Below are positions 1,347 to 49,168 of a stretch of 64,000 nucleotides of DNA, in pieces. The position numbers and the translations under genes are program-made. How positions within the stretch are numbered: position 1 is the first letter of the stretch; each line of letters starts with the position of its first letter. Below the pieces are notes generated by a model. The model was not told where the DNA came from, did no database searches, and saw only the letters and a program-made list of their open reading frames with translations. Origin of the DNA: Candidatus Altimarinota bacterium (GTDB taxonomy: Bacteria; Patescibacteriota; Gracilibacteria; JAUYGZ01); contig JARGOK010000002.1 in assembly GCA_029233985.1 (NCBI GenBank), positions 434,001 to 498,000 of the forward strand, given 5' to 3'.

Positions 1347-1468
1347 AAAAAGAAAAAAAGAAACAAAACAAAGGGTCGAGATGCAGAATACGGCATCAGA
1401 AAGCCCTTGTAAAGCAACAAAAGGGCAAATAAAGCCTTTTAAAGAAATTGTTTACAATTCGGAACATA

Positions 1469-1504
1469 CTGAATATCCTCAGTATCGTTAGTATCATCAG
1501 CATT
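1469..1504. repeat. Four tandem 9-bp units before the 1507 gene
   Basis: Four consecutive nonamers (CTGAATATC, CTCAGTATC, GTTAGTATC, ATCAGCATT) fit NTNAGYATY and end two bases before an ATG. The same consensus recurs in the signal-peptide region of yibE at 20466-20501 and, as two units, at 3181-3198. Confidence 0.75.
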
Positions 1505-1506
1505 TT

Positions 1507-1773
1507 ATGAACTCTGAAGACTCCATTTTCAATTATCTCGAGTCCGACAATCGAGATCAAAGCAAAATTCCAAAAGCAGATGAGGAAATTCCTCCTTTCA
1601 AGGCTGTATGCTGCATGAAATATGCCATCGAAAAACAGTGCAAACGATGCCCTTTTCGTCAAATAGAAGACGCTAAAGAACAAGCACAGGCTCTCAAAGA
1701 ATGCCGAGAAAAACGTCGAGGGACTTATCATTATGAAAACCTCAACATCGAGTACAATTCAAAGTATTGGTAG
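1507..1773 (+). CDS. Small Cys-containing hypothetical protein, 88 aa
   Basis: No family recognised. The 88-residue product is acidic at the N-terminus (NSEDSIFNYLESDNRDQ) and then has a CCMKYAIEKQCKRCPF segment. Its four cysteines spaced C-C-x8-C-x2-C could bind a metal. A Lys/Arg/Glu-rich helix and an aromatic tail (NSKYW) follow. It is divergent from infB across about 160 bp, and its ATG sits directly after a nonamer repeat array. The Cys pattern and the clean start favour a real gene, but no function can be given. Confidence 0.55.
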   Translation: MNSEDSIFNYLESDNRDQSKIPKADEEIPPFKAVCCMKYAIEKQCKRCPFRQIEDAKEQAQALKECREKRRGTYHYENLNIEYNSKYW

Positions 1774-1814
1774 TAATGACGACACAACGTTCATTCTGAA
1801 TAAATTCGTTAGTG

Positions 1815-1820
1815 TATAAT
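1815..1820 (+). promoter_or_regulatory. Candidate -10 box for pgi
   Basis: TATAAT lies about 75 bp before the pgi ATG in the only AT-rich gap upstream of it. No good -35 is visible at 16-18 bp. The leader also contains TTTTTAGAAATAAAAAA, a string repeated before the antiporter start at about 8100. Confidence 0.35.
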
Positions 1821-1896
1821 AAGTTAGCCATATAAACGGAAGGTGAATTCCTAACAAATCATTCTGTTTTTAGAAATAAAAAATTAAAATTTTCTC

Positions 1897-3081
1897 ATGA
1901 TTTCCCTCAAGCTCAATGCTCTCACAACCTTCCCCCTCAAAGAGGAAAACTTCGCCCACCTCGACGCTATCCCAACCCGAGACTTCACGGAATGGCTCAA
2001 GCTTCCAGAAGACCCAGACAATATCATTGAATCAATCCAAGCATTTGTAACAGAACGTAAAGGAGCCTGGGACCATATAATCGCCCTCGGAATGGGAGGA
2101 TCAGCACTTGGAATAGTAACCCTCAAACAAGCCTTTTTTCCCTTCGACGACCGACTCATAGTTATCGACAATCTAGACTCCAACACAGTCGCTCACACCC
2201 TCTCCATTATCAACCCCGAACGAACCCTGATAATGGTCATTTCAAAATCGGGTGGAACACTCGAAACCATGACGAATTACGAAGTCTTCAAGGATAAATT
2301 TACTGAAGACCAATACAAAAAAAACTTCATCGCCATCACAGATCCAACATCAGGCATTCTCCGAGATATAGTAAACAAGGACGGACTTATCAGTTTCCCT
2401 ATCCCTTCCATGGTAGGCGGCCGTTTTTCAGTCCTCACAGCTCTCGGACTCCTTCCACTGGCACTCATGGGAGGAAATCCGAAAGCACTCTTAGACGGAG
2501 CCAAAAACATGTTGGCTCGCTGTTTAAAAAAGGCAGAATCAAATCCAGCTCTCCAACTCGCCAAAGCTGCATTCAGTCTTTCTACTCAAAATGAACGACC
2601 AAAAACCATCAATTGTATCTTTTCCTATTCCGACCAACTTTTCTCTCTAGGCCTCTGGTACCAACAACTCCTCGCGGAATCGATCGGAAAAAGTACTGAA
2701 GTCGGCCTGACACCCCTAGCTCTCCGAGGTGCCAGTGACCAACACTCCGTCCTCCAACTCCTTCAAGAAGGCCCGAACGATAAACTCAACATCTTCATCG
2801 ATGTAGAAAAATCCAACCATTCTGTTTCTATCCCAGGAAAAGACTACGACATGCATCATATTCTCCGTACAGAATGTGCCGGAACAGAACAAGCCCTCCG
2901 TGAAGACAATCGACCAACACTCACCATCTCCATCCCAGAAATCAATGAACACTCTCTCGGAGAACTCTTCATGCTCTTCCAAATGCAAATAGCTCTCATA
3001 GGAGAATTCTTCCAACTCGATGCCTTTAATCAACCAGGTGTTGAAAAAAGTAAGCAAATCGTGAAAGCAGCTCTAAAGTAA
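1897..3081 (+). CDS. pgi: Glucose-6-phosphate isomerase
   Basis: Interconverts glucose-6-phosphate and fructose-6-phosphate in glycolysis, in the cytoplasm. The 394-residue protein has the GMGGSALG loop (about 65-73) and the SIS-domain phosphate-binding SKSGGTLETM (about 116-125). It also has GGRFSVLTALGLLP, the ESIGKSTEVG segment with the expected catalytic Glu, the QHSVLQLLQ His region, and a C-terminal EKSKQIV Lys. It is shorter than the E. coli enzyme, as in other compact bacterial forms. The ATG at 1897 follows a U-rich leader (AAAATTTTCTC). A strong bidirectional hairpin follows the stop. Confidence 0.96.
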   Translation: MISLKLNALTTFPLKEENFAHLDAIPTRDFTEWLKLPEDPDNIIESIQAFVTERKGAWDHIIALGMGGSALGIVTLKQAFFPFDDRLIVIDNLDSNTVAHTLSIINPERTLIMVISKSGGTLETMTNYEVFKDKFTEDQYKKNFIAITDPTSGILRDIVNKDGLISFPIPSMVGGRFSVLTALGLLPLALMGGNPKALLDGAKNMLARCLKKAESNPALQLAKAAFSLSTQNERPKTINCIFSYSDQLFSLGLWYQQLLAESIGKSTEVGLTPLALRGASDQHSVLQLLQEGPNDKLNIFIDVEKSNHSVSIPGKDYDMHHILRTECAGTEQALREDNRPTLTISIPEINEHSLGELFMLFQMQIALIGEFFQLDAFNQPGVEKSKQIVKAALK

Positions 3082-3103
3082 ATCTTCACATACATGATAA
3101 ACC

Positions 3104-3137
3104 AAAGAAGGCGAGGAAACGATTCCTCGCCTTCTTT
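3104..3137. terminator. Bidirectional hairpin terminator
   Basis: A perfect 15-bp inverted repeat (AAAGAAGGCGAGGAA / TTCCTCGCCTTCTTT) with an ACGA loop lies between the convergent pgi and lipoprotein genes. It belongs to the GGCGAGGA hairpin family seen at 24480, 36224 and 60320. Confidence 0.85.
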
Positions 3138-4133: not shown

Positions 4134-6074
4134 ATGACTGAAATTTGGAAGAAAATAGGTCAATGGATACTTGTTATTTTAAGTATATTTATTCTCATTG
4201 GTGGATGTCAGTATCTCTTAAATGGTAATAATGGTGATTATTCTGAAGCCATTGTAGAAAAAAGAAATCTCAATACGACGGTATCTGTCTCAGGAAAAGT
4301 AGTTCCTTCAGAAAAAGCTGAACTCGCATTTGAAGAATCAGGACGTGTGAGTATCATTCACACCGCTATTGGTAATCTTATTCGAATTGGAGATCCAATC
4401 ATCACCCTTGAAAACCAAGATAAAAAAGCCGATCTTGCTGAAGCAAATGCAAGATTACAAAGCCAAAAAGCACAACTCCAACAATTTCGAGCTTCTCTAA
4501 AAACAGAACAAGCAAAGCTAGCTGAACTCAATAGTGGAACTCGACCTGAAGAACTCGAAATTGCTGAAACAGAAAAAGGAAATGCAGAAAAAATAGTAAA
4601 AGACAAACAACAGATTTTCAAAGAACAACAAGAAATTAGTCGAACAAAAAAAGAAAAAGATGAAAAATCTATTGCAGATGCTCAAGAAAATTACGATAGC
4701 GTGGTAGATCAAAATTCAATAGCAAATAAAAACATGTATAGCGATATTCCTCTTTTAGTTCAAGAAACAATAAATTCAACCATTTCTGCAGTCATTACCA
4801 AAACAGGAAATATATACAGGTCAAACAATCCAAACGCTTCGAACAGCCAACTCGCTGAAGGATCAGACTACACAGCAAATTTCCGAATACCAGATGGTCA
4901 ATTTCCATTAGAAATAATTGCCAACACAAAAAAGAAAGCTGCTTTACGATACAACAACGAACTACAAGAAGAATTATCAAAAATCTCAGAATCCAGTACA
5001 TATACCGAAAAAGAAGCACTTTTGATTCAAGCTGAAAAAGTCCTCAAAACATCTCTCGAATTTTTACAAGTCACGAAAAACCTTTTAGCAGTCGCCAATA
5101 ATGAAGAGCAGTCCGATCTTGTTTCTACTTTCAGATCAGCTGCCAACGAAGCAGCCATAGATATCACATCCAAATTAAATCAAGTTGAAAACCAAGAACA
5201 GCTTATTCGAACACAAAGAAATGAAAACCAAAATCGTCTCATTGCTGCTCAAGAAAAACTAAATGCTGCAAAAAATAGCCTGGAAATAACAGTAATAACA
5301 ACACAACAAGATCTCTCAAATGCAGAATCAAATATTAACACTGCAGAAAACACATTAAAAAGTGCTGCGAAAGAGCTCAATTTAAAACTTGCTGGTGCTC
5401 GACAAGAACAACTTGATGCTCAAGAAGCACTTGTAGAAGAACGTCGGGCAAACCTAAGTTTTCAACAAGCAAAGATCGAAGAATCTGAAGCGGAAGTGCT
5501 TCGAAAAGAAGCTGATTTAGAAAAAACAGTACTTCGCTCCCCTATCGATGGAATTATTTCAAAGCAAGATACAGAACGAGGAGAAATTATTGCAGCAAAC
5601 ACAGTAATTGCCGGAGTATTATCAGAAGATAATTTTGAAATTGAAGTCAATATACCAGAAATAAATATCGCATCACTTGAAGTAGAACAAACTGCTCTTG
5701 TTACACTAGATGCATATGGAAAAGATATTAAATTTGAGGCAATTATTTCTCACATTGACCCTGCTGAAACACTTATCGATGATGTACCAAATTATGAAAT
5801 ATCGCTCACATTCCTAAAAAAAGACGAACGTATACGATCTGGAATGACAGCAAACGTTACCTTGATATCTGCAGAAAAAGAAAACGTACTCACAGTTCCT
5901 CAACGTGCCGTCTATCAAGATGGAGAAGAACTCTATGTGTTCCGCAAAACAGAAAAAAATGATCGTGAAAAAGTCATCATCGAATCATCTTTTGTGAGCA
6001 CAGATGGATATCGAATGATAACCAAAGGGCTATCAGAAAATGACATGGTAATAATCCCTTACGGAAACGAATGA
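4134..6074 (+). CDS. HlyD/MacA-type membrane fusion protein of an ABC efflux system
   Basis: Periplasmic adaptor that links the following ABC permease to the outside. It is 646 aa, with a membrane anchor at about 8-25 that ends in LIGGC, so it may also be lipidated. A barrel-sandwich half follows (TVSVSGKVVPSEKAELAF to IRIGDPIITLENQDKKADLAEA, about 48-105). A very long Gln/Ala/Glu-rich coiled coil spans about 105-465. The second lipoyl half is LRSPIDGIISKQDTERGEII (about 467), then the beta-barrel and membrane-proximal domains. The hairpin is longer than in usual MacA. The stop overlaps the permease start (ATGA at 6071), showing translational coupling. Confidence 0.9.
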   Translation: MTEIWKKIGQWILVILSIFILIGGCQYLLNGNNGDYSEAIVEKRNLNTTVSVSGKVVPSEKAELAFEESGRVSIIHTAIGNLIRIGDPIITLENQDKKADLAEANARLQSQKAQLQQFRASLKTEQAKLAELNSGTRPEELEIAETEKGNAEKIVKDKQQIFKEQQEISRTKKEKDEKSIADAQENYDSVVDQNSIANKNMYSDIPLLVQETINSTISAVITKTGNIYRSNNPNASNSQLAEGSDYTANFRIPDGQFPLEIIANTKKKAALRYNNELQEELSKISESSTYTEKEALLIQAEKVLKTSLEFLQVTKNLLAVANNEEQSDLVSTFRSAANEAAIDITSKLNQVENQEQLIRTQRNENQNRLIAAQEKLNAAKNSLEITVITTQQDLSNAESNINTAENTLKSAAKELNLKLAGARQEQLDAQEALVEERRANLSFQQAKIEESEAEVLRKEADLEKTVLRSPIDGIISKQDTERGEIIAANTVIAGVLSEDNFEIEVNIPEINIASLEVEQTALVTLDAYGKDIKFEAIISHIDPAETLIDDVPNYEISLTFLKKDERIRSGMTANVTLISAEKENVLTVPQRAVYQDGEELYVFRKTEKNDREKVIIESSFVSTDGYRMITKGLSENDMVIIPYGNE

Positions 6075-7330
6075 AAAAGTTCACATCAGTTCGAGTAGGA
6101 TTCTTTCTGGCATATCGACAAGTCATAAGAGGAAGCCTATGGACCAACACCCTGATTATCTCAGTAATGTTTTTAACTTTTCTTAATTTAGTCGTGGTAA
6201 GTGGGATTCTCGTTGGACTCATACAAGGATCAAGCCAAGAAAGTCAGTTAAAGTACTCTGGAGATATTATTATTTCAAACCTTCCAACAAAAAACTACAT
6301 CGAAAATAGTCAGAGAATTATGAGTACATTGGAAACAATTCCTGAAATTGAAGCATTCACATCTCGATATCTAGAAGGAGGGACAATTCAAGCAAATTAC
6401 AAAGAAAAAACAAATAATGCCGAAAGACAAGATGAAGCAGGTACACAAATTGCAGGTATAGATCCTCGAAAAGAAAATCTAGTGACGAATATTTCTGGTG
6501 AAATGTTTGAAGGGGAATTTTTGAGGTCAGATGAAGAAAACTTTATTGTTTTAGGAAGTAGTCTTCTCAAAGAATACGCTCGAGGAGAAGCTCCCGGCTT
6601 TGATACATTAGAAAAAGTAAGAGTAGGAGACAAAGTCCGAGTGAAAGTGGGAAATTCAAGTAAAGAATTTACTATAAAAGGGATCTTAAAGAGCAAAGAA
6701 GGAAATCTCGACCGACGTGCGTTTATTATTGATAGAGAACTTCGAAAACTCATTGGCAGATCAGACTTTAATGTCGATGAAATCGCCATTAAATTGAAAG
6801 ATATTCCAGGAATAACTGCTCATGGATTCAAAAACTCATTACAAAACCTCAACTTTGAAGAGTTTGCAACTATTCAAACCTATAAAGAAGCTCAAGGACA
6901 GTTTTTAGAAGACATTGCTTTTACATTTGGAGTTTTAGGAAATGTTATTGGTTCCATTGGCCTTGCGGTCGCATCGATAACTATTTTTATTATCATTTTC
7001 ATAAACGCCATAACTCGCAGGAAATATATTGGAATTCTAAAAGGAATTGGAATTCAGGGTATTGCAATAGAACTTTCTTATGTATTTCAATCTCTTTTTT
7101 ATGCCATTATCGGCACTACTTTAGGAGTATTAGTGATCTATTTTTTCCTCATACCCTATATCGATCTCAATCCTATCGATTTTCCTTTTAGTGATGGGAT
7201 CCTCTACGCACCAGCTGAAGACACAGCAATAAAAGCCGCCATTCTTCTTTGTACAACCATGATCGCTGGATATATCCCTGCAAAAATGATTATTCGAAGA
7301 AATACTTTAGATGCTATTTTAGGACGCTAA
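6071..7330 (+). CDS. MacB/FtsX-family ABC transporter permease
   Basis: Membrane subunit of the efflux pump, 419 aa. It has one N-terminal membrane segment (about 27-52), a large extracytoplasmic MacB periplasmic core domain (about 55-285; GEFLRSDEENFIVLGSSLLKEYA is typical), and three C-terminal membrane segments. These include an FtsX-like GNVIGSIGLAVASITIFIIIF stretch (about 293-325) and RRKYIGILKGIGIQG. The ATP-binding subunit is encoded separately 2 bp downstream. The substrate cannot be read from the sequence. Confidence 0.9.
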   Translation: MKKFTSVRVGFFLAYRQVIRGSLWTNTLIISVMFLTFLNLVVVSGILVGLIQGSSQESQLKYSGDIIISNLPTKNYIENSQRIMSTLETIPEIEAFTSRYLEGGTIQANYKEKTNNAERQDEAGTQIAGIDPRKENLVTNISGEMFEGEFLRSDEENFIVLGSSLLKEYARGEAPGFDTLEKVRVGDKVRVKVGNSSKEFTIKGILKSKEGNLDRRAFIIDRELRKLIGRSDFNVDEIAIKLKDIPGITAHGFKNSLQNLNFEEFATIQTYKEAQGQFLEDIAFTFGVLGNVIGSIGLAVASITIFIIIFINAITRRKYIGILKGIGIQGIAIELSYVFQSLFYAIIGTTLGVLVIYFFLIPYIDLNPIDFPFSDGILYAPAEDTAIKAAILLCTTMIAGYIPAKMIIRRNTLDAILGR

Positions 7331-7332
7331 CT

Positions 7333-8019
7333 ATGATTACAGCAAAAAACATCAAGCGATCATTCAACGATGGACAACGAGAACTCGAAGTACTCAAAGG
7401 CATCGATGTAACAATCACAAAAGGAGAATTTGTAGCTATTATTGGTCGATCTGGAGCAGGAAAAAGCACACTTCTCTATCAGTTAAGTTTATTAGACAGA
7501 CCAACTGCAGGAAATGTCATCTTAGATAAAAAACAAACCGCCACACTTTCAGACAATGAAAGAACTCAATTTCGATTAGAAAACTTGGGATACGTTTTTC
7601 AAGACTATGCGCTTATTCCTGATCTCACGGCAGAAGAAAACATCATCGTTCCGATGCTCATGAAAGGGATGGAAAAAACGGAAGCATTACAAAAAGCTCT
7701 TAAAGCTATGAATCAAGTAGGACTAAAAGACCGTGTCAAAAACCTTCCTTCAGAGTTATCCGGCGGAGAACAACAACGTGTTAGCGTAGCACGAGCGTTT
7801 GCCGATGAACCAAAAATTATTTTTGCAGACGAACCAACCGCAAACCTTGATAGCGCAAGTGCAAAAATGGTTCTAGATGTATTCTTAGACCTCCACAAAG
7901 CAGGGAACACCATTGTAATGGTCACGCATGAAATGGAATATGCAAGGCTCTCAGAGAGAATTATCACGCTCAAAGACGGCCTTATTTACTCCGATAAAAA
8001 GGTTTCAAAAAAGAAATAG
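7333..8019 (+). CDS. ABC transporter ATP-binding protein (MacB/LolD type)
   Basis: Cytoplasmic ATPase that drives the permease encoded just upstream. It is 228 aa from ATG 7333; an earlier in-frame start at 7249 would lie inside the permease gene and lacks family support. It has Walker A GRSGAGKST, a Q-loop in VFQDYALIPDLTAEENI, signature LSGGEQQRVSVARA, Walker B IIFADEPTANLD and H-loop VTHEMEYA. With the two genes before it, it forms a complete three-gene efflux operon. Confidence 0.94.
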   Translation: MITAKNIKRSFNDGQRELEVLKGIDVTITKGEFVAIIGRSGAGKSTLLYQLSLLDRPTAGNVILDKKQTATLSDNERTQFRLENLGYVFQDYALIPDLTAEENIIVPMLMKGMEKTEALQKALKAMNQVGLKDRVKNLPSELSGGEQQRVSVARAFADEPKIIFADEPTANLDSASAKMVLDVFLDLHKAGNTIVMVTHEMEYARLSERIITLKDGLIYSDKKVSKKK

Positions 8020-8120
8020 AGTTGCTCGCAAAAATAATCAGTTCTTTTCACATTTGGAGATAAAAGCTCATTGATCTATGATGTATAACACCTCTGAGAT
8101 TTTTAGAAATAAAAAAAACA

Positions 8121-9731
8121 ATGAACACTCTTATCTCTATAATAATACTTACTGCTTCAATTGCCCTTTTCTTAAACCTCTTTTTTAAGAAAGTAAATAT
8201 TCATTCAATTATTGGATATATCATTGCTGGAGCCATCATCAGCTATGTATTTGATTTCCAAAACACCAGCAGTGAAATGTTGAGCATTATTGCAGAGTTT
8301 GGAATTGCCTTCTTGATGTTTAGCATCGGCTTGGAATTTTCGATCAATAAATTAAAAACGATCAAAAAAGAAGTTTTTGTCTATGGATCCTTGCAGGTTG
8401 TATCCACAGCATTATTTTTTTATGTCATCGCGTATTCACTCTTTCATTTAAATCACGCGATCTCTCTTATTATCAGTTTAGCTTTAGCATTGTCATCTAC
8501 AGCTATTGTCCTGAAACTCCTCAATGACAGTGGTAAAATCTATAAAACATATGGGAAAAACACAGTTGGAGTACTTCTTTTTCAGGATATGGCTGTCATC
8601 CCAATTATGCTAATGATCACTATATTGGCAAGTTCACAAAGCAATGTAAATGAACTCCTCTTTGGGACACTCTTGAATGCTCTTACACTCCTCGGAGTTT
8701 TCTTTGTCTTGGGGCAATATATTCTGCCTAAGTTTTTTGACATGGTCACAAGCACCAAATCAGATGAATTATTTATCACTTCTATACTTCTCTTGGTCAT
8801 TGGTTCTGCTCAATTTGCACATATTTTAGGGTTTTCATACTCACTCGGTACCTTTATCGCTGGTATGGTTATTGCCAAAACAAATTATAAATATCAAATC
8901 GAAGCAGATCTCATTCCTTTTCGAGACTTACTCCTAGGTATATTTTTTATCTCAGTAGGAATGCAGCTTGATGTTGCTGTTATCCCAAATAATATCGTCC
9001 TAATACTTAGTCTACTCATTGGTATTATTTTAAGCAAAGCAATCATTGTTTTTGCAGTTATCCGTCTCTTTCATACTTCCCAGATATCCTTTAAAACAGC
9101 TATTATTTTAGCTCAAGCTGGTGAGTTTTCTTTCGTTATTTTCGAATTAGCAAAAATTAATGGTTTATCACTCGACACACAAATGAGCCAAGTGATTATG
9201 GCAGTGATTATCTTTTCAATGCTGTTGACACCATTTATGTTTAATAATCTAAACAACATAAGTGGGTTTTTTCTTGAAAAAATCAAGGACGAAGGCAAAA
9301 TATTAGGAGAAGAAGATATTAGTGGTCACATCCTTGTTTGTGGCTATGGAGGATTAGGACAAAAACTTGTCAGCAAGCTTAAAGAACTAAATATTCCCTA
9401 CCTCGCTATCGAACGCGACCGAAAACTCATCAAAAAATCAATAGAACAAGGAAATAATGTTTTGTATGGCAACGCCAGTAAAAAAAACCTCTTAGAAAGA
9501 GCAAACATCCATAAAGCAAAAGCTATCATCATTGCTATGAGTAATGACAAAAACATCCAAATGGTCACTCAAGCAATCCACCAAACTGCACCAAATGCTA
9601 CAGTCCTTGCTCGTGCTGCCAACAATTATCAAAAAGCTGAATTAGAAAACAGCAACGTCAATTTCATTGTTGACAATATGGAGATCACGGCTAATTCATT
9701 TCTCGAATACATTTCAAATGAAGTAAATTGA
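8121..9731 (+). CDS. CPA2-family cation/proton antiporter with RCK (TrkA-N) domain
   Basis: Integral membrane Na+ or K+/H+ antiporter of the Kef/CPA2 class, 536 aa. About 12 membrane segments fill residues 1-375; GFSYSLGTFIAGMVIAKT and FRDLLLGIFFISVGMQL are typical of the family. A C-terminal Rossmann TrkA-N domain starts at about 397 with HILVCGYGGLGQKLVSKL and an acidic IERD after beta-2, fitting NAD(H) regulation. The gene ends in TGA, which argues against UGA recoding. It is a single-gene unit behind a U-rich leader that shares TTTTTAGAAATAAAAAA with pgi. Confidence 0.92.
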   Translation: MNTLISIIILTASIALFLNLFFKKVNIHSIIGYIIAGAIISYVFDFQNTSSEMLSIIAEFGIAFLMFSIGLEFSINKLKTIKKEVFVYGSLQVVSTALFFYVIAYSLFHLNHAISLIISLALALSSTAIVLKLLNDSGKIYKTYGKNTVGVLLFQDMAVIPIMLMITILASSQSNVNELLFGTLLNALTLLGVFFVLGQYILPKFFDMVTSTKSDELFITSILLLVIGSAQFAHILGFSYSLGTFIAGMVIAKTNYKYQIEADLIPFRDLLLGIFFISVGMQLDVAVIPNNIVLILSLLIGIILSKAIIVFAVIRLFHTSQISFKTAIILAQAGEFSFVIFELAKINGLSLDTQMSQVIMAVIIFSMLLTPFMFNNLNNISGFFLEKIKDEGKILGEEDISGHILVCGYGGLGQKLVSKLKELNIPYLAIERDRKLIKKSIEQGNNVLYGNASKKNLLERANIHKAKAIIIAMSNDKNIQMVTQAIHQTAPNATVLARAANNYQKAELENSNVNFIVDNMEITANSFLEYISNEVN

Positions 9732-29020: not shown

Positions 29021-30634
29021 CTACACCTTCTTCCTCATCAAATACTTAAAAAAAGGAAGCTTCTTTAAATAAGGCCACATAAAAACATGCCCCCAATGCC
29101 GACGCGAATGCACCAAACCGTGAACCTCCTCCCAATCATCCTCCCAGTCTCGCGTATCCATTTGAATCTGCCGAGACTTCTCTAAAATAGGAACGGTCAA
29201 CTCTGGACACTCCACGTAGGACCGACAAGTCAAATACGTATTCACTTCCCTACTCTCAGGTCTTGCATCTTCTACGATAGGAACAAAGAAAAGCGAACTA
29301 TTATACTCGTCGCGAAACTGTTTTGGGGCTCTCATCATGTGAGCAAGGTACCTCATTGGATTCTCTGGATGTTGAGACTCCATATCATAAACCTTCATTG
29401 CCCCATGATAGCCCGAAAAGATTTGAACCTTTCCATGAAGCTTCAAAGACAAATAATCACCATCGGTATCTGGGTCTTTCGTAGGGTCAGCATCTAAAAG
29501 ATGAAAGTTTTCTGGATGCATATAAAAATAATAATCTTTTTCACCTTTCGGAAGAAAGTCCCTTATAAATCGGGTTTGAGCAGCATCTACTTTTCCCATA
29601 AATGAATGATTCATTGCTTCTGTCTCATAGCGATCAAATACATTTTCAGCTTGCACCAAATCTACCAAAAGAGACTCTCTCCCCTTATCAGTAGTCATAA
29701 CAGGAAGATCATCTTGCAACACATCACCATTTGGGTACATCGCTTTCATCAAGGGCAATTGATATGGTATAGCAACTGTAACGGACTCTTCAGCAGGACC
29801 TTTGTCATAATTAAAAATCCGACTCCCACGCAGCAGGACCCGGGGCATCACCTTGACCACAGCATGAGTAGAACTCACATACAAAAATCTTGGCTTCAAC
29901 TGTTGGGTCTTTTCATCAAGAACATACACCACCAAAGCACGTCTTTTCTTACCACTCTGACTCATCAAATCAAACCCTTGCGATGGGTACAAAACCGTTG
30001 GCCCATGATCATAAGAAAATTCTTTTTGAGGGGGCCACTGCTTCAATTCTTTCAATTCATCAAACAAACCGTCTTCACGAAATTTCTCCTCAAGCTCCCT
30101 CTCAAACCTCAAATAACGAATCCGATTTGGGTCTAATTTCATCGTAATTTTTGAGTCTTGACGAATAGCTTTGGGATCCAAACGTGTCAAATGACTATCA
30201 AAACTATTTTCTATCTGTTCTTTGAGGTAAAGAAAAAGCCCCAAAATTCTTTTTGAAAGCAAGTCGCTATCAAGATCTTGGAGAGTCAGATGACGTTTGC
30301 AAAAATATTCCCGAAAAGTCTTCATCATACTCTCTAAAGAAATCACAAAAGCAGCTCCATTAGAGAGCTCAAAAGCAAAAACTCGCTCTGCCATCCTCAT
30401 GGTTAATGTCACCTTTGATATCCTAAGCATGCCTAAAAGCTGGCACATAGAAAGCACCAAATCAGCTGGATATTTCGTACAAGTTTCTTCACCCATCACA
30501 CACAAATCATAATATAACTGATCACTGTCTTTTGATGAAGCCAACTGCATCAATACATGCTCATCAAGGATTCGAGATTCATCGATTGGACGATCATCCT
30601 GAAAAGAAAGGCTTTCTAAGAGAGACATAAACAT
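29021..30634 (-). CDS. Orphan 537-aa protein
   Basis: Not recognised. Start is 30634 (MFMSLLESLS) or Met3. It has no signal peptide and no membrane helix. The N-terminal 220 residues look helical and charged; the middle (about 225-330) contains beta-type stretches (ALVVYVLDEKTQQLKPRFLYVSSTHAVVKVMPRVLL). The C-terminal third is rich in aromatic, His and Asp residues (FYMHPENFHLLDADPTKDPDTDGDYLSLKL, SGYHGAMKVYDMESQHPENPMRYLAHMMRAPKQFRDEY). It ends in a basic hydrophobic tail (FFKYLMRKKV). Coding quality is good, with no stops or frameshifts. It converges with msrB, 3 bp apart. Confidence 0.8.
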   Translation of the reverse strand: MFMSLLESLSFQDDRPIDESRILDEHVLMQLASSKDSDQLYYDLCVMGEETCTKYPADLVLSMCQLLGMLRISKVTLTMRMAERVFAFELSNGAAFVISLESMMKTFREYFCKRHLTLQDLDSDLLSKRILGLFLYLKEQIENSFDSHLTRLDPKAIRQDSKITMKLDPNRIRYLRFERELEEKFREDGLFDELKELKQWPPQKEFSYDHGPTVLYPSQGFDLMSQSGKKRRALVVYVLDEKTQQLKPRFLYVSSTHAVVKVMPRVLLRGSRIFNYDKGPAEESVTVAIPYQLPLMKAMYPNGDVLQDDLPVMTTDKGRESLLVDLVQAENVFDRYETEAMNHSFMGKVDAAQTRFIRDFLPKGEKDYYFYMHPENFHLLDADPTKDPDTDGDYLSLKLHGKVQIFSGYHGAMKVYDMESQHPENPMRYLAHMMRAPKQFRDEYNSSLFFVPIVEDARPESREVNTYLTCRSYVECPELTVPILEKSRQIQMDTRDWEDDWEEVHGLVHSRRHWGHVFMWPYLKKLPFFKYLMRKKV

Positions 30635-41163: not shown

Positions 41164-41610
41164 ATGCTCAAAGACAAACTCTATGCCGATATCATCACTG
41201 CTATGAAATCAGGAGACTCACTCAAAAAAGAAGCTCTCAAAATGGTCAAAGCAGAAATTATGAAATTCGAAGTCTCAGGTGCCGAAATGATAGCCGATGA
41301 TGAAAAAGTATTAGAGATCCTCGGGCGAGCAGTCAAACAACGAAAAGAAGCCGCTGAAGGATTCACTCAAGGTGGAAACACTGAAGCTGCCGAAAAAGAA
41401 ATGCAAGAAGCTGCCATTTATGCTGAATACCTTCCCGAACAAATGGGAGAAGAAGAAGTAAAAAAAATTGTCGAAGAAACCATCGCAGAAGTTGGAGCTG
41501 CTGGACCTTCTGATATGGGGAAAGTAATGGGAGCCATCATGCCAAAGGTAAAAGGAAAAGCTGATGGAGGACTGGTGAAGCAACTTGTTCAGTCTTGTTT
41601 AAATGAATAA
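41164..41610 (+). CDS. GatB/YqeY domain protein
   Basis: 148-aa stand-alone YqeY protein, the helical domain also found at the C-terminus of GatB. MLKDKLYADIITAMKSGDSLKKEALKMVKAEI is the usual N-terminus, with RAVKQRKEAAEGFTQGG and AEYLPEQMGEEEVKKIVEETIAEVGA following. SDMGKVMGAIMPKVKGKADGGLVKQLV closes the domain. Its role is presumed tRNA-related. Its leader has weak 7-bp units (41134-41161), and a clear terminator follows. Confidence 0.94.
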   Translation: MLKDKLYADIITAMKSGDSLKKEALKMVKAEIMKFEVSGAEMIADDEKVLEILGRAVKQRKEAAEGFTQGGNTEAAEKEMQEAAIYAEYLPEQMGEEEVKKIVEETIAEVGAAGPSDMGKVMGAIMPKVKGKADGGLVKQLVQSCLNE

Positions 41611-41622
41611 GATAAAATGAAA

Positions 41623-41644
41623 AACCCGCGCCGAATCGCGGGTT
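41623..41644. terminator. Terminator after yqeY
   Basis: AACCCGCG / CGCGGGTT, a perfect 8-bp GC-rich stem with loop CCGAAT, 13 bp after the yqeY stop and also downstream of the convergent 43-aa gene. Confidence 0.85.
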
Positions 41645-41679
41645 ATCTCTTCATAGCGGAAGGCCGAGAAGAATCCTCA

Positions 41680-41811
41680 TCACTGGTTAATAGCGATGAG
41701 GAAAGCGGCTAAGCAAACTACTATACCGCCTATAAGGAACATCGCCCTCGTAACACCACTATACTTCATAGCTTCGTCCAATTCAGGTCCTGTCATCTTC
41801 TTCTGAGTCAT
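41680..41811 (-). CDS. 43-aa single-pass membrane protein
   Basis: A short gene that begins at ATG 41811 with MTQKKMTGPELDEAMKYSGV and continues into one hydrophobic helix (about 24-41) ending IAINQ and TGA. AAAGGAGATT lies 5-6 bases before the ATG, the only strong Shine-Dalgarno site I found in the window. A soluble head plus one helix suggests a small regulator or subunit of a membrane complex. No family is recognised. Confidence 0.75.
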   Translation of the reverse strand: MTQKKMTGPELDEAMKYSGVTRAMFLIGGIVVCLAAFLIAINQ

Positions 41812-41901
41812 AATAATCTCCTTTCTTAGTGAGATTAAGGTTTAAACGGAGAAGAATTCTATCAAACAAAACAGTATTTGTCAATCACTGACAACAGTAT
41901 T

Positions 41902-42729
41902 TTATTTCGTCTTCCCAGTCTTCATATCCATCACCTGGTACTTTCCATCACATATCGCCACGACTTTCACTTCATCAGATTCAGATAAAACACTTGGGTC
42001 TCCATAATATGTCGTTTGCTCTTGGTAAGGACAAACCACACGAGAAAGGAGAACAAAATCCTTCCCAACTTTTTTAAACACCAAAAAACTCCCCCAGCTT
42101 GAAAACCATTGAAGTGCTGCTAATTCCGTAAACCCATCTTTAACACGGAGCGTCAGAGAAGGGAGAGGAAAGGTATCTTGAATCATTTCTGGATCTTCCT
42201 TCATGCCTTTTTTAAAGCTCTCAAAAGTCTGTTGACCAACACTCACCATTTCAGAAACTTCCTTTCGAGCTTTCTTTGCATCCCCATCTCCCTCCCACAC
42301 AAGCTCTATCTGAACAACACTCTCTTTAGAAATTTTCTTTTGAGACATTTTCAATGAAGTCCTTTTTTCACGATTTTTTCTTAAATCTCTCCAGTCTTTC
42401 GAAGACTTCCTTCCCTTCACAACATGTCGAGGCACTCGTATTTCTTGAAGAATTACTTTTTTCCCATCTTTCATCACAAACAACCTCGTCACATCTTGTC
42501 CTTTTTCATCCCAACGAATCTCCACATCCAAACCATCAATAAGAGCAATAACATTTGGTAAGACCTTTTTCTCCAAAACTTCAGCAAGCTTCGTTCGGTC
42601 TTGCGCCATCACCCTTTCCGGTTCAAAGACAGAGTGAAAGACAAATACGACTCCCAATAGGACCAACAATCTTTGTACATCTTCAAAAGAAAACGATTCT
42701 TGATCACGGGCTAATAATGATTCGAGCAT
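41902..42729 (-). CDS. Hypothetical anchored extracytoplasmic protein, 275 aa
   Basis: Unrecognised. One hydrophobic segment near the N-terminus (about 21-36; LLVLLGVVFVFHSVF) would anchor it. The rest is Lys/Glu-rich with a beta-strand pattern and a central SFKKGMKEDPEMIQDTFPLPSLTLRV. Two cysteines late in the protein (RVVCPYQEQ, AICDGKYQV) could pair. It lies head-to-tail 46 bp downstream of rarA. Directly after the stop, TTGTCA-ATCAC-TGACAA (41878-41894) is flanked by ACAGTATTT direct repeats. Confidence 0.65.
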   Translation of the reverse strand: MLESLLARDQESFSFEDVQRLLVLLGVVFVFHSVFEPERVMAQDRTKLAEVLEKKVLPNVIALIDGLDVEIRWDEKGQDVTRLFVMKDGKKVILQEIRVPRHVVKGRKSSKDWRDLRKNREKRTSLKMSQKKISKESVVQIELVWEGDGDAKKARKEVSEMVSVGQQTFESFKKGMKEDPEMIQDTFPLPSLTLRVKDGFTELAALQWFSSWGSFLVFKKVGKDFVLLSRVVCPYQEQTTYYGDPSVLSESDEVKVVAICDGKYQVMDMKTGKTK

Positions 42730-42775
42730 ACAAAATAATCACAGACTAAGACTCATTTATAACACATCTCAATAC

Positions 42776-43900
42776 CTAAACATACTTCTTCCCACTCAAC
42801 TTCTTCGGCAACAAGCTCTCTTTCGTATACATTTCATAGTCCTTTCCATACCCCATCTTTTTCATCATCTTGGTCGGAGCATTCCGAGCCTTCATCGGAA
42901 TCGGCAAATCGCCATGCTCACGAATATCTTGTAATGCTTGCTTAAACCCTTCATAGGCTGACCGATCTTTCTTGCAGGTCGCCAAGTACACCACTCCATG
43001 AGCCAGGTTAATCCCACATTCTGGAAGGCCAATCGTTTCTACAGAGCGAAATACTTCATTGGCTACTACCAACGCAGTTGGCATGGCCATCCCAATATCT
43101 TCTGAAGCAAATACGACCATACGGCGAGCTATAAACTTCGGGTCTTCACCTCCTTCCAGCATTCGAGCTAAATAATACAATGCCGCATCAGGCTGACTTG
43201 CTCTCATAGATTTAATAAAAGCAGAAATCGTATCGTAGTGCCCTTCCCCTTTCTTGTCGTATCGAACCGACAAAGAAGACAACGAAGACTTTAAATGCTC
43301 CACAGAGAGATCAGGGTACAACTGAGAGGCTGTCTCCAAAATAGTCAGCAACCTCCGCGCATCACCATTGGCATAGTGGATCAACCACTGCCGAGATTCA
43401 TCTGGTACCTCTAGTTCAGACTGATCGATAATCGTATTCAAAGCCTCTTCATCATGAGACTGCAGCACAAAAACCTGGCAGCGTGAAAGCAAAGCACCGA
43501 TCACTTCAAAGCTCGGATTCTCAGTTGTCGCACCAATCAAAGTCAAATCGCCTGTTTCCACAAAGGGCAATAAATAATCCTGTTGAGCTTTATTAAAACG
43601 ATGAATTTCGTCTACGAAGAGAATTTTTGGCTGTCCCATCGTAGCCTGTTTCACAATTTTCTTCAGATCTTCCTTACCAGCCGATACTGCAGAAACCTCA
43701 AACAAAATCCCCTTCACTGCTTTTGCATAAATCCGAGCCAAAGTCGTCTTACCAACTCCCGGAGGACCCCAAAGAAGAAAAGAAAATAAATGACCTTTTT
43801 CTATCGCTTCATATAAAGGCTTCCCCGGACTCACCAAATGAGCCTGACCGATGTAGTCATTGAGGGATCGTGGACGAAGGCGATGAGCGAGAGGCTGCAT
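42776..43900 (-). CDS. rarA: Replication-associated recombination protein A (MgsA/RarA AAA+ ATPase)
   Basis: 374-aa clamp-loader-like AAA+ ATPase that acts at stalled forks. LRPRSLNDYIGQAHLV, Walker A GPPGVGKTTLARI, Walker B ILFVDEIHRFNKAQQDYLLPFVE, sensor 1 IGATTENPSFEVIGALLSRC, then the RarA tetramerisation part MRASQPDAALYYLARMLEGGEDPKFIARRMVVFASEDIGMA. The C-terminus is slightly short of the E. coli form. A MgsA-type YLATCKKDRSAYEGF segment confirms the family. Confidence 0.96.
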   Translation of the reverse strand: MQPLAHRLRPRSLNDYIGQAHLVSPGKPLYEAIEKGHLFSFLLWGPPGVGKTTLARIYAKAVKGILFEVSAVSAGKEDLKKIVKQATMGQPKILFVDEIHRFNKAQQDYLLPFVETGDLTLIGATTENPSFEVIGALLSRCQVFVLQSHDEEALNTIIDQSELEVPDESRQWLIHYANGDARRLLTILETASQLYPDLSVEHLKSSLSSLSVRYDKKGEGHYDTISAFIKSMRASQPDAALYYLARMLEGGEDPKFIARRMVVFASEDIGMAMPTALVVANEVFRSVETIGLPECGINLAHGVVYLATCKKDRSAYEGFKQALQDIREHGDLPIPMKARNAPTKMMKKMGYGKDYEMYTKESLLPKKLSGKKYV

Positions 43901-43960
43901 AGAAGAAAAACGAAAATAATGGTTATCATTGAGGGTTCGACATTATAATCTCACCGAGCG

Positions 43961-43986
43961 CACTACTGTACTTTTGTACAGTAGTG
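43961..43986. promoter_or_regulatory. Perfect inverted repeat between rarA and the 1264-aa gene
   Basis: CACTACTGTAC-TTTT-GTACAGTAGTG, 11-bp arms. It has no adjoining poly-T run. It lies upstream of rarA and downstream of the large orphan, so it may be an operator for rarA or a terminator for the orphan. Confidence 0.5.
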
Positions 43987-44054
43987 AATGATTCATCAAT
44001 CTACAAGACAATTTGTGCCGTAAATAAAAACCCGTATGATATTCTTTCTTGATA

Positions 44055-47000
44055 TCAAGTATCAACAGAATCACTTGGTAATTGCGGTTTTTGAAGTGGA
44101 TCTTTACTCGTTTTTTCAGACTTCTCCTTCATTTCTTTTCGATAAGGGTAAAGATCAAGTAAGAAATGATAAACCCTAAACAAAGTATTGTTCTCTGGAT
44201 TTCGATGCTGAGTAAGGAGCACATCACTACTTAAAGTTCCCTCAGGAAAAAAAGTAGAGGCTCTTAACACTTCCCCTTGAACTTCAAATACTCGAACACC
44301 ATCCTTCATCTCAGCAGAAAAATTTTTGAGGTTTTCTATACGCATTTTTCGAACTACTAAGCTAGGCACTGGTAATGAACTTCCTTTTCCTCTATTAAAA
44401 ATAACAGTTATTCCAAAATCACAAAGAGGTGTCATATAAGAGAGCAATTGGGAAAATTGCCTTCTAAACTGCTGAGCCCCACCCCACACCTTATTTTCTC
44501 CAACCATTATCGTCTTACCATTCTTAGAAACATGAATATCTAATTCTCCTTCTTTTTTAGCTGCATACATTTGCCGATGTTGTGTTGTAAGAACAAGCCC
44601 ATTCTCTTCAAAAATTCTTTCAGCTTTCGATACGATCCATTCAGTAGAACTGTCCTCATCACAATCTTCAATCTGACGAGGTTTTTGAGAAAGTCTATCA
44701 ATAGTATCCCCTAGTTCCGATACAATGAATTTTTCTTCATCAGAAATATCCAACCCTTCAATTTCTCGCTCTGTTTCACGAATTATTGAAAGAAATCGAT
44801 TACTCAAATCACTTTGCACTTTGTTCAAGCCCAGACCTTGCAAACGTCTTGCAGCATCTGGGATAGCATCTGTCAAGGTTTGTATCAATGCCGTATCTGG
44901 TGAATACTCAGCAGTATTCTCCCAAGAATCATATGCGTCTGTGGCTCGTTTCAAGTATGGAAAAGCTTCATATATATCGACACCTGCGTAAGCAGCACCT
45001 AAATTCAAATTAAGTAAAAAATCTTGTTTTGAATACAAATCTCTATGAGATTCAATCAAATCAATCGCTGCTTGATGTTTCTTTCTCCAAATCAAAACCG
45101 CAGAGTAATTAATAACATCGCCTACTTCTATTGGAGCATTTTCCTGAGCAAAAAACCGTTTATAAGAACTTTCAGATTCCCCCAAAAGTTGTTCGAGATT
45201 TAGAGGTAGCTCAGAAGTTTCAGAAGAAGAATCATTTCCATCGCTTGGACCATCAGAAGGAACTGCTAATCCTCCAGTTTCAGCTCTTTCCTTCTCATAC
45301 TGCCACTCTCTCAAGAAGATCAACCCGTCACGAGCAAGAGAACGCTGGAGAAAACGAGTATCTTCAAGAGTTCTGACTTGTTCATGTATTGGCCTAGCCA
45401 TATTTTTTGAAAATTCTCTCGCCTGTTTAAATTGTGCTAGTTTAAGAAAAGCATTCATACGAAGAGCCTGAACAGGTCTCACATAGGTATTCAAGCCTTT
45501 TATTTGAATATATTCAGAAAGCTTATCAACAAATTTTAAAGCCACTTTTACATCGCCGTACTCAATAAAAAATTGAGCCTGATAAAAAAGTTCTGCCATG
45601 TGAATATACTCAAAACCCTCTGCTTTTTTATAAGCAGATGTCAAATCATAATTAGCAATAGGTTCAACATCATGAAACACCATTTGAAAGAGAATAATTT
45701 CCATCACCGATAAACGAGGCTCGATCTCTTGAAAAGACTTTATCACTGTCTGGTCCAAGAAGGCATTTTTATCACCTTGTGCATTAGCACGAGCTGCAAT
45801 AATACTTTCCTTCTGTAAAAGAAATACTTGAAAACTGAGAACATCATCAGGATGAAATGCCGAATTCTTAGTATCTCTCTTATATATTTCAGCGTCTTTA
45901 TCCAGCAAAAACTCTCTCAAGCTCAAAGGTGGAAAAGACGAATAATCATAGTTTTTAAGCTTCGAAAACTGTTCAACAACATAATTCAAAATGACTGTGC
46001 GATGAGAAAAATCTCTATTGTCTCTAAGAGTAGAAAGAAGTACTCCCATATGAAAACGAATACGCTGCAATGCTTCATAATAATCATTACCTGTTCCTTC
46101 TGGCAAATCATCATATTTTTTTTGCTTATCATTCCCCAAGATATCATCAAGTTCTTGTGTTTGATCAACATCAAGAATTTTTGTTGCTAACTTCACTTTA
46201 TCCATATGCATCAAAGCCAAACGAACAGCCTGAACTCTCGTCCCTTTAAGAGCAGATAAAACTTTGTACCTTCCATTCTTTAAAAACTCAAAATACTCCT
46301 GCAAAACACTTCGAGATTCTTTTGCGAGCTCCTCATTCGATAAATCAGCTTCAAAAATCACTTCATATTGATCAAAAATATGTGGGTTTAATGTACTCAA
46401 ACCTTTCTTGAGCCATTGAACCTTATCTGGAACATTTGGAATATATTGCTTAAGGTAGTTCACAACCATTTCGACAACCTCATCCTTATAAACAAATATT
46501 TGAAAACGAGAACCAGGTTCATGAAGTTCTCCTAAAAGATCTCTCAAAAACTCTCTTTTCTCTTCCAAATTTGTGGTATTAGTACAAACTCTCTCTATAT
46601 AATACTTCAATAAATCTCGCTTAAAGAGTTCATGTTGCTCAGCATATTCATCTTGTCCATTACCTATCAATGACTGAATACCAAGAATATTTTGAATAAT
46701 AAAAGGCGCTATCTCTACATAAGCATATTTGAGAATACGGTGGTAGTGTGAAGGATCATTTAACCTCCGTGACAACAAAAATGCTGCCACATTCACCCCT
46801 TGCTGAAGAATTTTTTGCCATTGCGCTTCACCTACTTGATCAAATAAATAGTTCAAAGAAAATTGGATATCTTGTGTAATAATTTGCACTTGTTCCGCCA
46901 ATCCTCCCATACCACAATCCATTTCTGATGAATATTTTCTCTTAAAATCAAAACTATTAAGATCATTCTTTGGTTTTAGAGAAACAATATCTTGTCCATC

Positions 47001-47849
47001 TAAAAGATAAGGAATATTGCTAAGCCTTACCAAAAACTGCACCTGTCCAATAGTCTTCAGATTTTCATTCTCAAGCAATCGTTTCTTTACAACATAATCA
47101 GCTAAAATTCGTATTTTAGTACTTCCTATGTTTTTTTCCCAATTAGGTGGTAAATATCCATCGAGACTACTCAGGCTCAATAGCAGTGCATAATGCTTAC
47201 TAATATCCTCTTTCCAATCATTCTCCGAAACACCTTCCAAATAAACTTGAAAAGCCTCATCAAATGCTTCATATATCTGCAAATATCCAGACTGCAAGGT
47301 GTCATTCAACATATAAGTCTGCCTTACATTATTCGTATCATTTGGAAGAAAATACGCTATTGGCAACTTCTCCGTTCTATTCATATTATGATTTTCCAAA
47401 ACCTGTTCTAAGACACCTCTAGAAAACAATGGAATAGTATATCGAGATATGTCGTACTGATCCAAAAACAACAATTTTGGATCAATAAAGGCATTGCATC
47501 TCCGAAAACCAGAACTAGAACGCAAATGAGGGTTCATCATGACCTGATCATTTGCCACAATAATAAAATTTTCTTCTTCAAGACTTTTTTCATCGATCTG
47601 TGCGTTTAGATTTGTATCATTCCATTTTCTTAATAATTCTTGAAAAAATGCCATGGAGTTTGGCAGATGTTTTTTTGGATCAAAATACTCAAAAAGTTTT
47701 ATAAAAAAACCATGCACATCATACTGATATAAATACTCTCTATGCTTTCGCTGTTCTTGTATTTGCTCTGCACACAAAAAAGTGTCTTGATTTGAATGAT
47801 CTCTGTATCTATTTAAGACCTTCCTCAAACGATAATAATCTTTGTTCAT
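44055..47849 (-). CDS. 1264-aa helical-repeat protein with C-terminal PD-(D/E)XK nuclease-like domain
   Basis: No known family as a whole. Residues 1-1000 are almost entirely helical, without signal peptide, membrane helix or visible P-loop. The stretch at about 765-860 (AELFYQAQFFIEYGDVKVALKFVDKL, AFLKLAQFKQAREFSKNMA) looks like TPR-type helical pairs. A Ser/Asp/Gly linker is at about 895-910. The C-terminal part carries EGELDIHV (Asp1104), MVGENKVW (Glu1118, Lys1120) and QFSQLLSYM (Gln1134, Tyr1138), the spacing of a PD-(D/E)XK core with a QxxxY-like motif. It is a stand-alone gene, AT-richer than its neighbours. A nuclease role, perhaps in defence, is inference. Confidence 0.7.
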   Translation of the reverse strand: MNKDYYRLRKVLNRYRDHSNQDTFLCAEQIQEQRKHREYLYQYDVHGFFIKLFEYFDPKKHLPNSMAFFQELLRKWNDTNLNAQIDEKSLEEENFIIVANDQVMMNPHLRSSSGFRRCNAFIDPKLLFLDQYDISRYTIPLFSRGVLEQVLENHNMNRTEKLPIAYFLPNDTNNVRQTYMLNDTLQSGYLQIYEAFDEAFQVYLEGVSENDWKEDISKHYALLLSLSSLDGYLPPNWEKNIGSTKIRILADYVVKKRLLENENLKTIGQVQFLVRLSNIPYLLDGQDIVSLKPKNDLNSFDFKRKYSSEMDCGMGGLAEQVQIITQDIQFSLNYLFDQVGEAQWQKILQQGVNVAAFLLSRRLNDPSHYHRILKYAYVEIAPFIIQNILGIQSLIGNGQDEYAEQHELFKRDLLKYYIERVCTNTTNLEEKREFLRDLLGELHEPGSRFQIFVYKDEVVEMVVNYLKQYIPNVPDKVQWLKKGLSTLNPHIFDQYEVIFEADLSNEELAKESRSVLQEYFEFLKNGRYKVLSALKGTRVQAVRLALMHMDKVKLATKILDVDQTQELDDILGNDKQKKYDDLPEGTGNDYYEALQRIRFHMGVLLSTLRDNRDFSHRTVILNYVVEQFSKLKNYDYSSFPPLSLREFLLDKDAEIYKRDTKNSAFHPDDVLSFQVFLLQKESIIAARANAQGDKNAFLDQTVIKSFQEIEPRLSVMEIILFQMVFHDVEPIANYDLTSAYKKAEGFEYIHMAELFYQAQFFIEYGDVKVALKFVDKLSEYIQIKGLNTYVRPVQALRMNAFLKLAQFKQAREFSKNMARPIHEQVRTLEDTRFLQRSLARDGLIFLREWQYEKERAETGGLAVPSDGPSDGNDSSSETSELPLNLEQLLGESESSYKRFFAQENAPIEVGDVINYSAVLIWRKKHQAAIDLIESHRDLYSKQDFLLNLNLGAAYAGVDIYEAFPYLKRATDAYDSWENTAEYSPDTALIQTLTDAIPDAARRLQGLGLNKVQSDLSNRFLSIIRETEREIEGLDISDEEKFIVSELGDTIDRLSQKPRQIEDCDEDSSTEWIVSKAERIFEENGLVLTTQHRQMYAAKKEGELDIHVSKNGKTIMVGENKVWGGAQQFRRQFSQLLSYMTPLCDFGITVIFNRGKGSSLPVPSLVVRKMRIENLKNFSAEMKDGVRVFEVQGEVLRASTFFPEGTLSSDVLLTQHRNPENNTLFRVYHFLLDLYPYRKEMKEKSEKTSKDPLQKPQLPSDSVDT

Positions 47850-47923
47850 AAAGATAATAGTAAAAACACTATAGAAGATACTCTACCATACTCTCAAAAA
47901 GACATGATACTACAAAGAATAAA

Positions 47924-47947
47924 AAAGCGCCCCTCTCAGAGCGCTTT
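47924..47947 (-). terminator. Terminator of the nrd genes
   Basis: AAAGCGC / GCGCTTT around a 10-nt loop. Read on the minus strand it ends in GCGCTTTTTTATTC, about 40 bp behind the nrdB stop. Confidence 0.8.
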
Positions 47948-47986
47948 CTTTCCAATCCAAATCAATCATTTTCAATCCTTCTCTTT

Positions 47987-49168
47987 TTACCACTCAAGCG
48001 TCCCTCCCACCTGATACTCAGTCACGCGTCGTTCAAAGAAGTTCTTCTCCTTCCCAAGATCAATCGCTTCACTCATCCATGGAAATGGATTTTCAGAACC
48101 ATAGATTGGCTTCAGTCGGATTCGTTCGAGACGTCGATCAGCAATATGTTGGACATACTCACGAATAGATTCTGGACTCAATCCAAGGATTCCATAAGGA
48201 ATCACATCATTTCCATACGTCACCTCCAATTCCACACCGTTACGAACCATTTTATACACCTTTTCTTGAAATTCAGGTGTCCACAGTTGAGGATTTTCAT
48301 CAATAACCGTATTGATCATATCAATCCCAAAGTTCATATGCATCGATTCATCTCGCATAATGTACTGAAACTGTTCAGCTGTTCCCACCATCTTATTTTG
48401 ACGTTGGAAACTCAGCATCATCACAAAAGAGGAGTAAAAGAAAATCCCTTCCATCACAACATAAAAAATAATCAAATTTTCCAAAAACATTTGCGCAGCC
48501 TCATCTGATTTTGTTGTAAAAGCAGAGTCTAAAATCCCTTCAGTCAAGCTCACAGCAAACATATCTTTATTGTAAATACTGTCGATCTCACGATACATAT
48601 TAAAGATTTTTGATTCATCCAATCCAATTGACTCTACGATGTATTGGTAAGAGTGCGTATGTACGGCCTCCTCAAAAGACTGTCGCAACAAGTACATTCG
48701 ACACTCCGGAGAAGTAATATGCTTGTAGATAGCAAGAACCAAGTTGTTCGCCACAATCGAATCAGCTGTCGTAAAAAAACCCATCGTCATCTCAATAGCT
48801 CGTCGTTCGTTATCAGACAACTCATCAGACTTCCAGAGCTCAATATCTTTTTGCATAGAAATTTCTTCAGGCAGCCAATGATTCGCATTTCCAGCCTTGT
48901 ACGCATCCCAAGCAAACTGATGTTTTATCGGAGAAAGCTGTACCACATCTCCTTCTTCACCATTGATAACTCGACGGTCATTCACATTCGGACGTTCTTG
49001 AGTCATTTTAAAATCTCCATAAAAGGTATTTTCAATCTCAACCGTTTGAGGGCGTTTGATATCTTTTACCTGAGCAGCATTCGCCTGTGCATCAGTATTT
49101 TGACCAACCGAAGGAACTGAAGAAGTTTGAGTAGAACTTGAGGAAGTTTGTGTAGAGTTATCGGACAT
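47987..49168 (-). CDS. nrdB: Class Ia ribonucleotide reductase beta subunit
   Basis: Provides the tyrosyl radical for NrdA. It is 393 aa. Diiron ligands and radical site are visible: Asp in FFTTADSIVANNL, Glu and His in FEEAVHTHSYQY with the radical Tyr four residues after His, Glu in VVMEGIFFYSS, and Glu/His in RDESMHMNFG. The C-terminal tail EYQVGGTLEW should dock on NrdA. The N-terminal 35 residues are a low-complexity Ser/Thr/Gln segment made from a 21-bp tandem repeat. It lies 153 bp downstream of nrdA. Confidence 0.97.
   Translation of the reverse strand: MSDNSTQTSSSSTQTSSVPSVGQNTDAQANAAQVKDIKRPQTVEIENTFYGDFKMTQERPNVNDRRVINGEEGDVVQLSPIKHQFAWDAYKAGNANHWLPEEISMQKDIELWKSDELSDNERRAIEMTMGFFTTADSIVANNLVLAIYKHITSPECRMYLLRQSFEEAVHTHSYQYIVESIGLDESKIFNMYREIDSIYNKDMFAVSLTEGILDSAFTTKSDEAAQMFLENLIIFYVVMEGIFFYSSFVMMLSFQRQNKMVGTAEQFQYIMRDESMHMNFGIDMINTVIDENPQLWTPEFQEKVYKMVRNGVELEVTYGNDVIPYGILGLSPESIREYVQHIADRRLERIRLKPIYGSENPFPWMSEAIDLGKEKNFFERRVTEYQVGGTLEW
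49122..49163. repeat. Two 21-bp units in the nrdB N-terminus
   Basis: GAAGTTT-GAGTAGA-ACTTGAG followed by GAAGTTT-GTGTAGA-GTTATCG: two copies of a 21-bp unit made of three heptamers. On the minus strand they encode the STQTSSSSTQTSS stretch of NrdB. Confidence 0.65.

Follow-up and report, generated by a model that had tools for sequence, protein, structure and literature searches.

A candidate one-protein sensor-nuclease with a predicted PD-(D/E)XK effector domain in a small-genome bacterial lineage

The 64,000-nucleotide stretch of DNA analysed here (the window) contains a gene for a protein of 1264 amino acids that ends in motifs of a PD-(D/E)XK nuclease, which raises the question of what this protein does and what the long region in front of the nuclease contributes. 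The gene occupies positions 44055..47849 on the minus strand, begins with ATG, is free of internal stops, and is intact and single-copy in a genome of 1.66 Mb, in agreement with an earlier reading of the DNA letters (the sequence-only reading), which had proposed an open reading frame at this place. We favour, at a rough probability of 0.55, a single-gene sensor-nuclease that is most likely directed against phages, and for which we infer both the defence role and the trigger.

The C-terminal nuclease domain

The stretches EGELDIHV, VGENK and QLLSY start at residues 1100, 1116 and 1134 of the protein, and the residues that the sequence-only reading had assigned to a PD-(D/E)XK core with a QxxxY-like motif, Asp1104, Glu1118, Lys1120, Gln1134 and Tyr1138, were all found at these positions. 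The motif alone is weak proof, since 25% of the shuffled versions also contained its loose form (D..[DE]xK..QxxxY); a second, unrelated loose match lies at residue 412. That reading had also proposed a profile search, a structure prediction and a survey of homologue neighbourhoods as checks. The first of these gave PDC-S54 as the sole PADLOC match of the protein (E=1e-7, residues 1099-1140 on profile positions 296-337 of 410), and nothing significant was obtained in Pfam, NCBIfam or PHROGs. Identical in 68/68 aligned relatives are G1101, D1104, I1105, E1118, K1120, W1122, G1124, Q1134, Y1138 and F1151, of which only the conservation beyond E1118-G1124 is independent, since the loci were retrieved by a pattern around this segment; the invariance of E1118 and K1120, both inside the pattern, is thus partly given by construction, whereas D1104, Q1134 and Y1138 lie outside of it. 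The profile match together with the conservation of the five motif residues in all 68 aligned relatives argues that the nuclease motif is real.

The region homologous to the C-terminal half of PDC-S54, as judged from the PADLOC match, the alignments A2 and A3 and the model pLDDT, comprises residues 1036-1160 (44370..44744, minus strand). Alignment A3 served as input for a model of residues 581-1264, whose core (residues 1036-1155) reached a pLDDT of mostly about 87-92. In this model, a helix (1065-1082) is followed by strands at 1086-1088, 1105-1109 and 1112-1121, a helix at 1125-1138 and a strand at 1145-1152. Asp1104 (44538..44540, minus strand), the putative metal-binding residue, opens the second strand, the (D/E)xK motif Glu1118-Asn-Lys1120 (44490..44498, minus strand) closes the third, and the QxxxY motif from Gln1134 to Tyr1138 (44436..44450, minus strand) is placed in the following helix by both alignment and model. 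The predicted core thus has the alpha-beta-beta-beta-alpha-beta plan of PD-(D/E)XK enzymes, with D1104, E1118 and K1120 positioned by the strand order. On the combined basis of profile, alignment and model, we are highly confident that the C-terminal domain has a PD-(D/E)XK nuclease fold. It would be a metal-dependent DNA nuclease with Asp1104, Glu1118 and Lys1120 as catalytic residues.

The alignment shows that the nuclease domain diverges from its relatives. The (D/E)xK motif reads E-N-K instead of the E-C-K found in all relatives, and the usually fixed positions carry the changes K1102E, T1103L and C1119N. The W-R-D-x-K of the relatives corresponds to P-L-C-D-F at residues 1141-1145, and the tail from F1151 onward measures 114 residues compared to 59-76 in the relatives.

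For the nuclease domain, Foldseek searches returned an Mrr-domain protein (prob 0.97) and the restriction enzymes EcoT38I (0.90), DrdV (0.66) and McrC (0.47), all at E-values above 0.001 and, for the restriction-enzyme matches with a probability of 0.90-0.97, not below 0.01. That restriction enzymes and an Mrr-domain protein are the closest folds is what would be expected of a restriction-like enzyme of type IV or stand-alone type II style. In such an enzyme no phage protein would act as a switch; DNA, perhaps phage DNA carrying modifications, would be bound directly by the N-terminal region and cut by the C-terminal domain. We consider this the most serious rival, if an unlikely one. The lack of a methyltransferase gene adjoining the gene would suit a modification-dependent enzyme, but no DNA-binding domain and no Mrr or restriction profile was matched in Pfam, and the N-terminal region, far above the usual size and partly TPR-like, is better suited to protein binding.

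Relatives of the nuclease and their surroundings

The nuclease region was found at 80 loci in bacterial and archaeal genomes and in 8 viral contigs, with 68 of the retrieved loci taken into the alignment. The same region retrieves PDC-S54 proteins of about 410 residues from plasmids and from further genomes of the phylum. The nuclease domain itself is thus not an orphan, and within the collections searched the label of orphan given to the protein by the sequence-only reading applies to the whole layout and to the N-terminal part of about 1050 residues. The protein is not a member of PDC-S54 either: it shares with this PADLOC candidate family the C-terminal pattern G..(K/E).DI...(E)xK.WxG...QxxxY, but it matches the profile in one stretch only, whereas true members match nearly the whole profile, it differs at several fixed nuclease positions, and it lacks the length of about 410 residues and the N-terminal half of about 240 residues, which is replaced by about 1050 unrelated residues.

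A third arrangement was found in a filamentous cyanobacterium, in which a protein of 770 residues (L022) carries the same nuclease, recognised as PDC-S54 at E=4e-75 over the C-terminal 172 residues, together with a NACHT domain (Pfam E=1.7e-7). This protein (positions 6033-8345 of its locus) is NLR-like and has its effector at the C-terminal end. It resembles ours in carrying the nuclease behind a large regulatory part but differs in its NACHT NTPase, as no NTPase motif is found in the 1264-residue protein. The fusion of the same nuclease to a NACHT domain argues that the nuclease is a swappable effector, which we would expect of defence modules. The PDC-S54 nuclease is thus a portable effector that occurs on at least three unrelated regulatory parts, namely the N-terminal half of PDC-S54 itself, a NACHT domain and the orphan helical region described here. 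The reverse separation was seen in three genomes of the phylum, where the PDC-S54 N-terminal half (profile positions about 3-209) occurs without the nuclease, either stand-alone or differently fused (L128, L129 and L130).

The proposed survey of neighbourhoods revealed defence genes near the domain relatives. Neighbouring genes match GajA, type I REase, mad3, AriA, Lamassu and type IIG models, and one plasmid relative adjoins a retron. Near neighbours matched 164 PADLOC models and far neighbours 71 in samples of similar size, a comparison that is suggestive only, since it counts matched models and not genes. PDC families themselves are unvalidated candidates from a guilt-by-embedding approach (PMC12988326).

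The N-terminal region of about 1050 residues

Relatives of the full-length protein or its N-terminal part were searched for in its own and 39 related genomes, in plasmids and in phages, and none were found; the same was true of the N-terminal 1050 residues in 353 genomes of the class and 380 of the phylum. Scans of viral and genome contigs also gave none, with the limit that they used short peptide patterns and may thus have missed distant relatives. The complete layout of the protein was absent from every other genome searched. The weak N-terminal hits examined were dismissed as their loci carry unrelated genes (a MutS-like protein at L011 and unrelated open reading frames at L009 and L012). 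Two further hits, a UvrD-like helicase (L006) and an N6-methyltransferase/type I restriction-like protein whose N-terminal part contains a nuclease-like stretch (L007), were weak and left out of the relatives. The latter, at positions 1219-3105 of its locus in a genome of the same class, is a putative N6-methyltransferase of type I/IIG-like restriction character with the PD-(D/E)XK-like N-terminal stretch GHGTSGRLDILVKKNGKAFLMIECK.

Of the large helical region described by the sequence-only reading, the outline was retained, and a confident model was obtained only for residues about 745-815 and 885-940. The first of these segments forms helical hairpins (residues 746-817; 45399..45614, minus strand) that look TPR-like in the model, reach a pLDDT of 83-94 without aligned relatives and give TPR fold matches. 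The second (residues 885-940; 45030..45197, minus strand) has a pLDDT of 81-86 over model residues 311-360, again without aligned relatives. Between them lies a low-complexity, acidic and serine-rich linker (residues 856-884; 45198..45284, minus strand; AETGGLAVPSDGPSDGNDSSSETSE), for which the model pLDDT is mostly below 50. Residues 1-600 (46050..47849, minus strand) are predicted to be mostly helical and have no relatives, and their single-sequence model was discarded as uninformative at a pLDDT of 34. The structure prediction thus supported the order of PD-(D/E)XK elements in the nuclease core but did not extend to this first part of the protein.

The TPR-like character claimed for the region held in part for the model and the weak fold matches, as many of the remaining weak Foldseek matches are TPR proteins, but not for the sequence. 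TPR repeats by sequence were rejected, since 60/500 shuffles scored equally well in a consensus scan, and no Pfam TPR reached the cut-off in the protein. The absence of an NTPase loop, also noted in that reading, was borne out: the sequence scan found no Walker A motif, and Pfam gave no NTPase match.

This absence separates the protein from sensor proteins of similar plan. Several Avs (AVAST) STAND proteins pair a PD-(D/E)XK nuclease with a TPR-like sensor. Avs proteins, however, need a central STAND NTPase, and of the STAND-type P-loop NTPase that marks Avs, NACHT and other STAND proteins the 1264-residue protein shows neither a Pfam match nor a Walker A motif. DSR2 is not known to have an NTPase domain. 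It is the nearest functional parallel, alike in working only: a single protein in which an enzymatic effector is combined with a large helical recognition part, and which detects a phage tail tube protein (PMC11087589). Its effector is a SIR2 NADase, in contrast to the protein studied here, which has no SIR2 match; the Foldseek probability for DSR2 was about 0.1, and no homology was shown. It is a tentative idea, and a doubtful one, that the N-terminal residues, about 1000 in number, form a new kind of sensor fold, one that detects some component of the phage and activates the nuclease without an NTPase, which would make the protein the representative of a new class of one-protein immune receptors.

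The genomic site and the probable role of the gene

In the window, the gene follows yqeY (41164-41610), a 275-aa orphan and rarA, and is followed by nrdB and nrdA. The orphan (41902-42729, minus strand) has no Pfam match and no relative in 39 related genomes. None of the neighbours of the gene, namely rarA, nrdB, yqeY and this orphan, was recognised as a defence gene. A terminator-like hairpin of 13 pairs with a T tail (47921..47950, minus strand) divides nrdB from the gene and so supports the view of the sequence-only reading that the gene stands alone. A promoter-like site, TTGAGA-18-TATAGT (47868..47897, minus strand), lies just 5' of the start codon; the number of such sites is not above chance. 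The higher AT content that had been noted for the gene was real but mild (GC 35.3% compared to 40.6 +/- 3.2% for the genes of the window), and its codon usage is typical of the window; the gene is thus either long-resident or derived from an AT-rich donor, and no obvious fresh foreign insert.

None of 352 other genomes of the class has the gene. G001, which belongs to the same family, has yqeY, a MazEF-like pair and then nrdB, with rarA and the 1264-aa gene missing. In a second genome (G002), the order is yqeY, a VapBC-like pair, rarA, a sugar-dehydrogenase-like gene and nrdB, and the 1264-aa gene is again missing; the sugar-dehydrogenase-like gene spans the ends of two contigs, which share IRNTV (L119 and L118). 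The names MazEF, VapBC, YqeY and sugar dehydrogenase were read from translations without profile search. The stretch between yqeY and nrdB (41610-47987), which in the window holds the 275-aa orphan, rarA and the 1264-aa gene, is thus a variable site whose cargo is swapped among relatives, as the contents differ between G001, G002 and the window. Since relatives lack the gene and carry others at this variable site, it is accessory and not housekeeping.

This setting bears on two further explanations. The position of the gene next to rarA and nrdB could have functional reasons if the protein were a lineage-specific nuclease of DNA repair or recombination, in line with its host-like codon usage; QxxxY PD-(D/E)XK domains are found in the repair nucleases RecB and AddAB. 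Such a role is improbable, and the least probable of those we considered, because the gene is missing from the 352 other genomes of the class, including G001 and G002, both of which keep nrdB and one of which (G002) also rarA, because the terminator-like hairpin separates it from nrdB, and because the relatives of its domain sit among defence genes. Only slightly better placed is a toxin that serves some conflict other than defence against phages. It could belong to a mobile element, be delivered as an effector into a neighbouring cell, or form a toxin-antitoxin-like unit whose partner, for example the 275-aa orphan, has escaped notice. MazEF-like or VapBC-like pairs occupy the same site in relatives, and a second orphan (41902-42729) lies within the same variable stretch, but the protein has no signal peptide-like start and no strong transmembrane stretch, rarA stands between its gene and the 275-aa orphan, and the adjacent genes examined include no recognisable transposase or integrase.

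The reading as a single-gene anti-phage sensor-nuclease would work as follows. The effector module is that of the C-terminal half of PDC-S54, and the preceding residues, about 1050 in number and at least in part a TPR-like solenoid without NTPase, would probably restrain it. Binding of a phage-derived protein or nucleic acid may lift this restraint, and the freed nuclease would cut phage or cellular DNA and so halt the infection. The gene for this protein is accessory and occupies a site whose cargo is exchanged among related genomes. The link to PDC-S54, the NACHT fusion and the defence genes beside the domain relatives strengthen the defence reading. Counting against it are the lack of a defence neighbour, the status of PDC-S54 as itself only a candidate, the Foldseek E-values, all above 0.001, the divergence at fixed positions, a codon usage that does not look foreign and an N-terminal region without full-length relative for comparison. 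If the defence reading is true, the gene would add a sensor-nuclease receptor that does without an NTPase and comes from a lineage with small genomes.

Elsewhere in the window, a 537-aa open reading frame (29021-30634, minus strand) has no Pfam match and lies in a stretch unmatched in G001. The sampled members of the phylum had genome sizes of about 0.6-1.7 Mb in most rows read, and the small size of these genomes and of the one carrying the 1264-aa gene would fit Patescibacteria.
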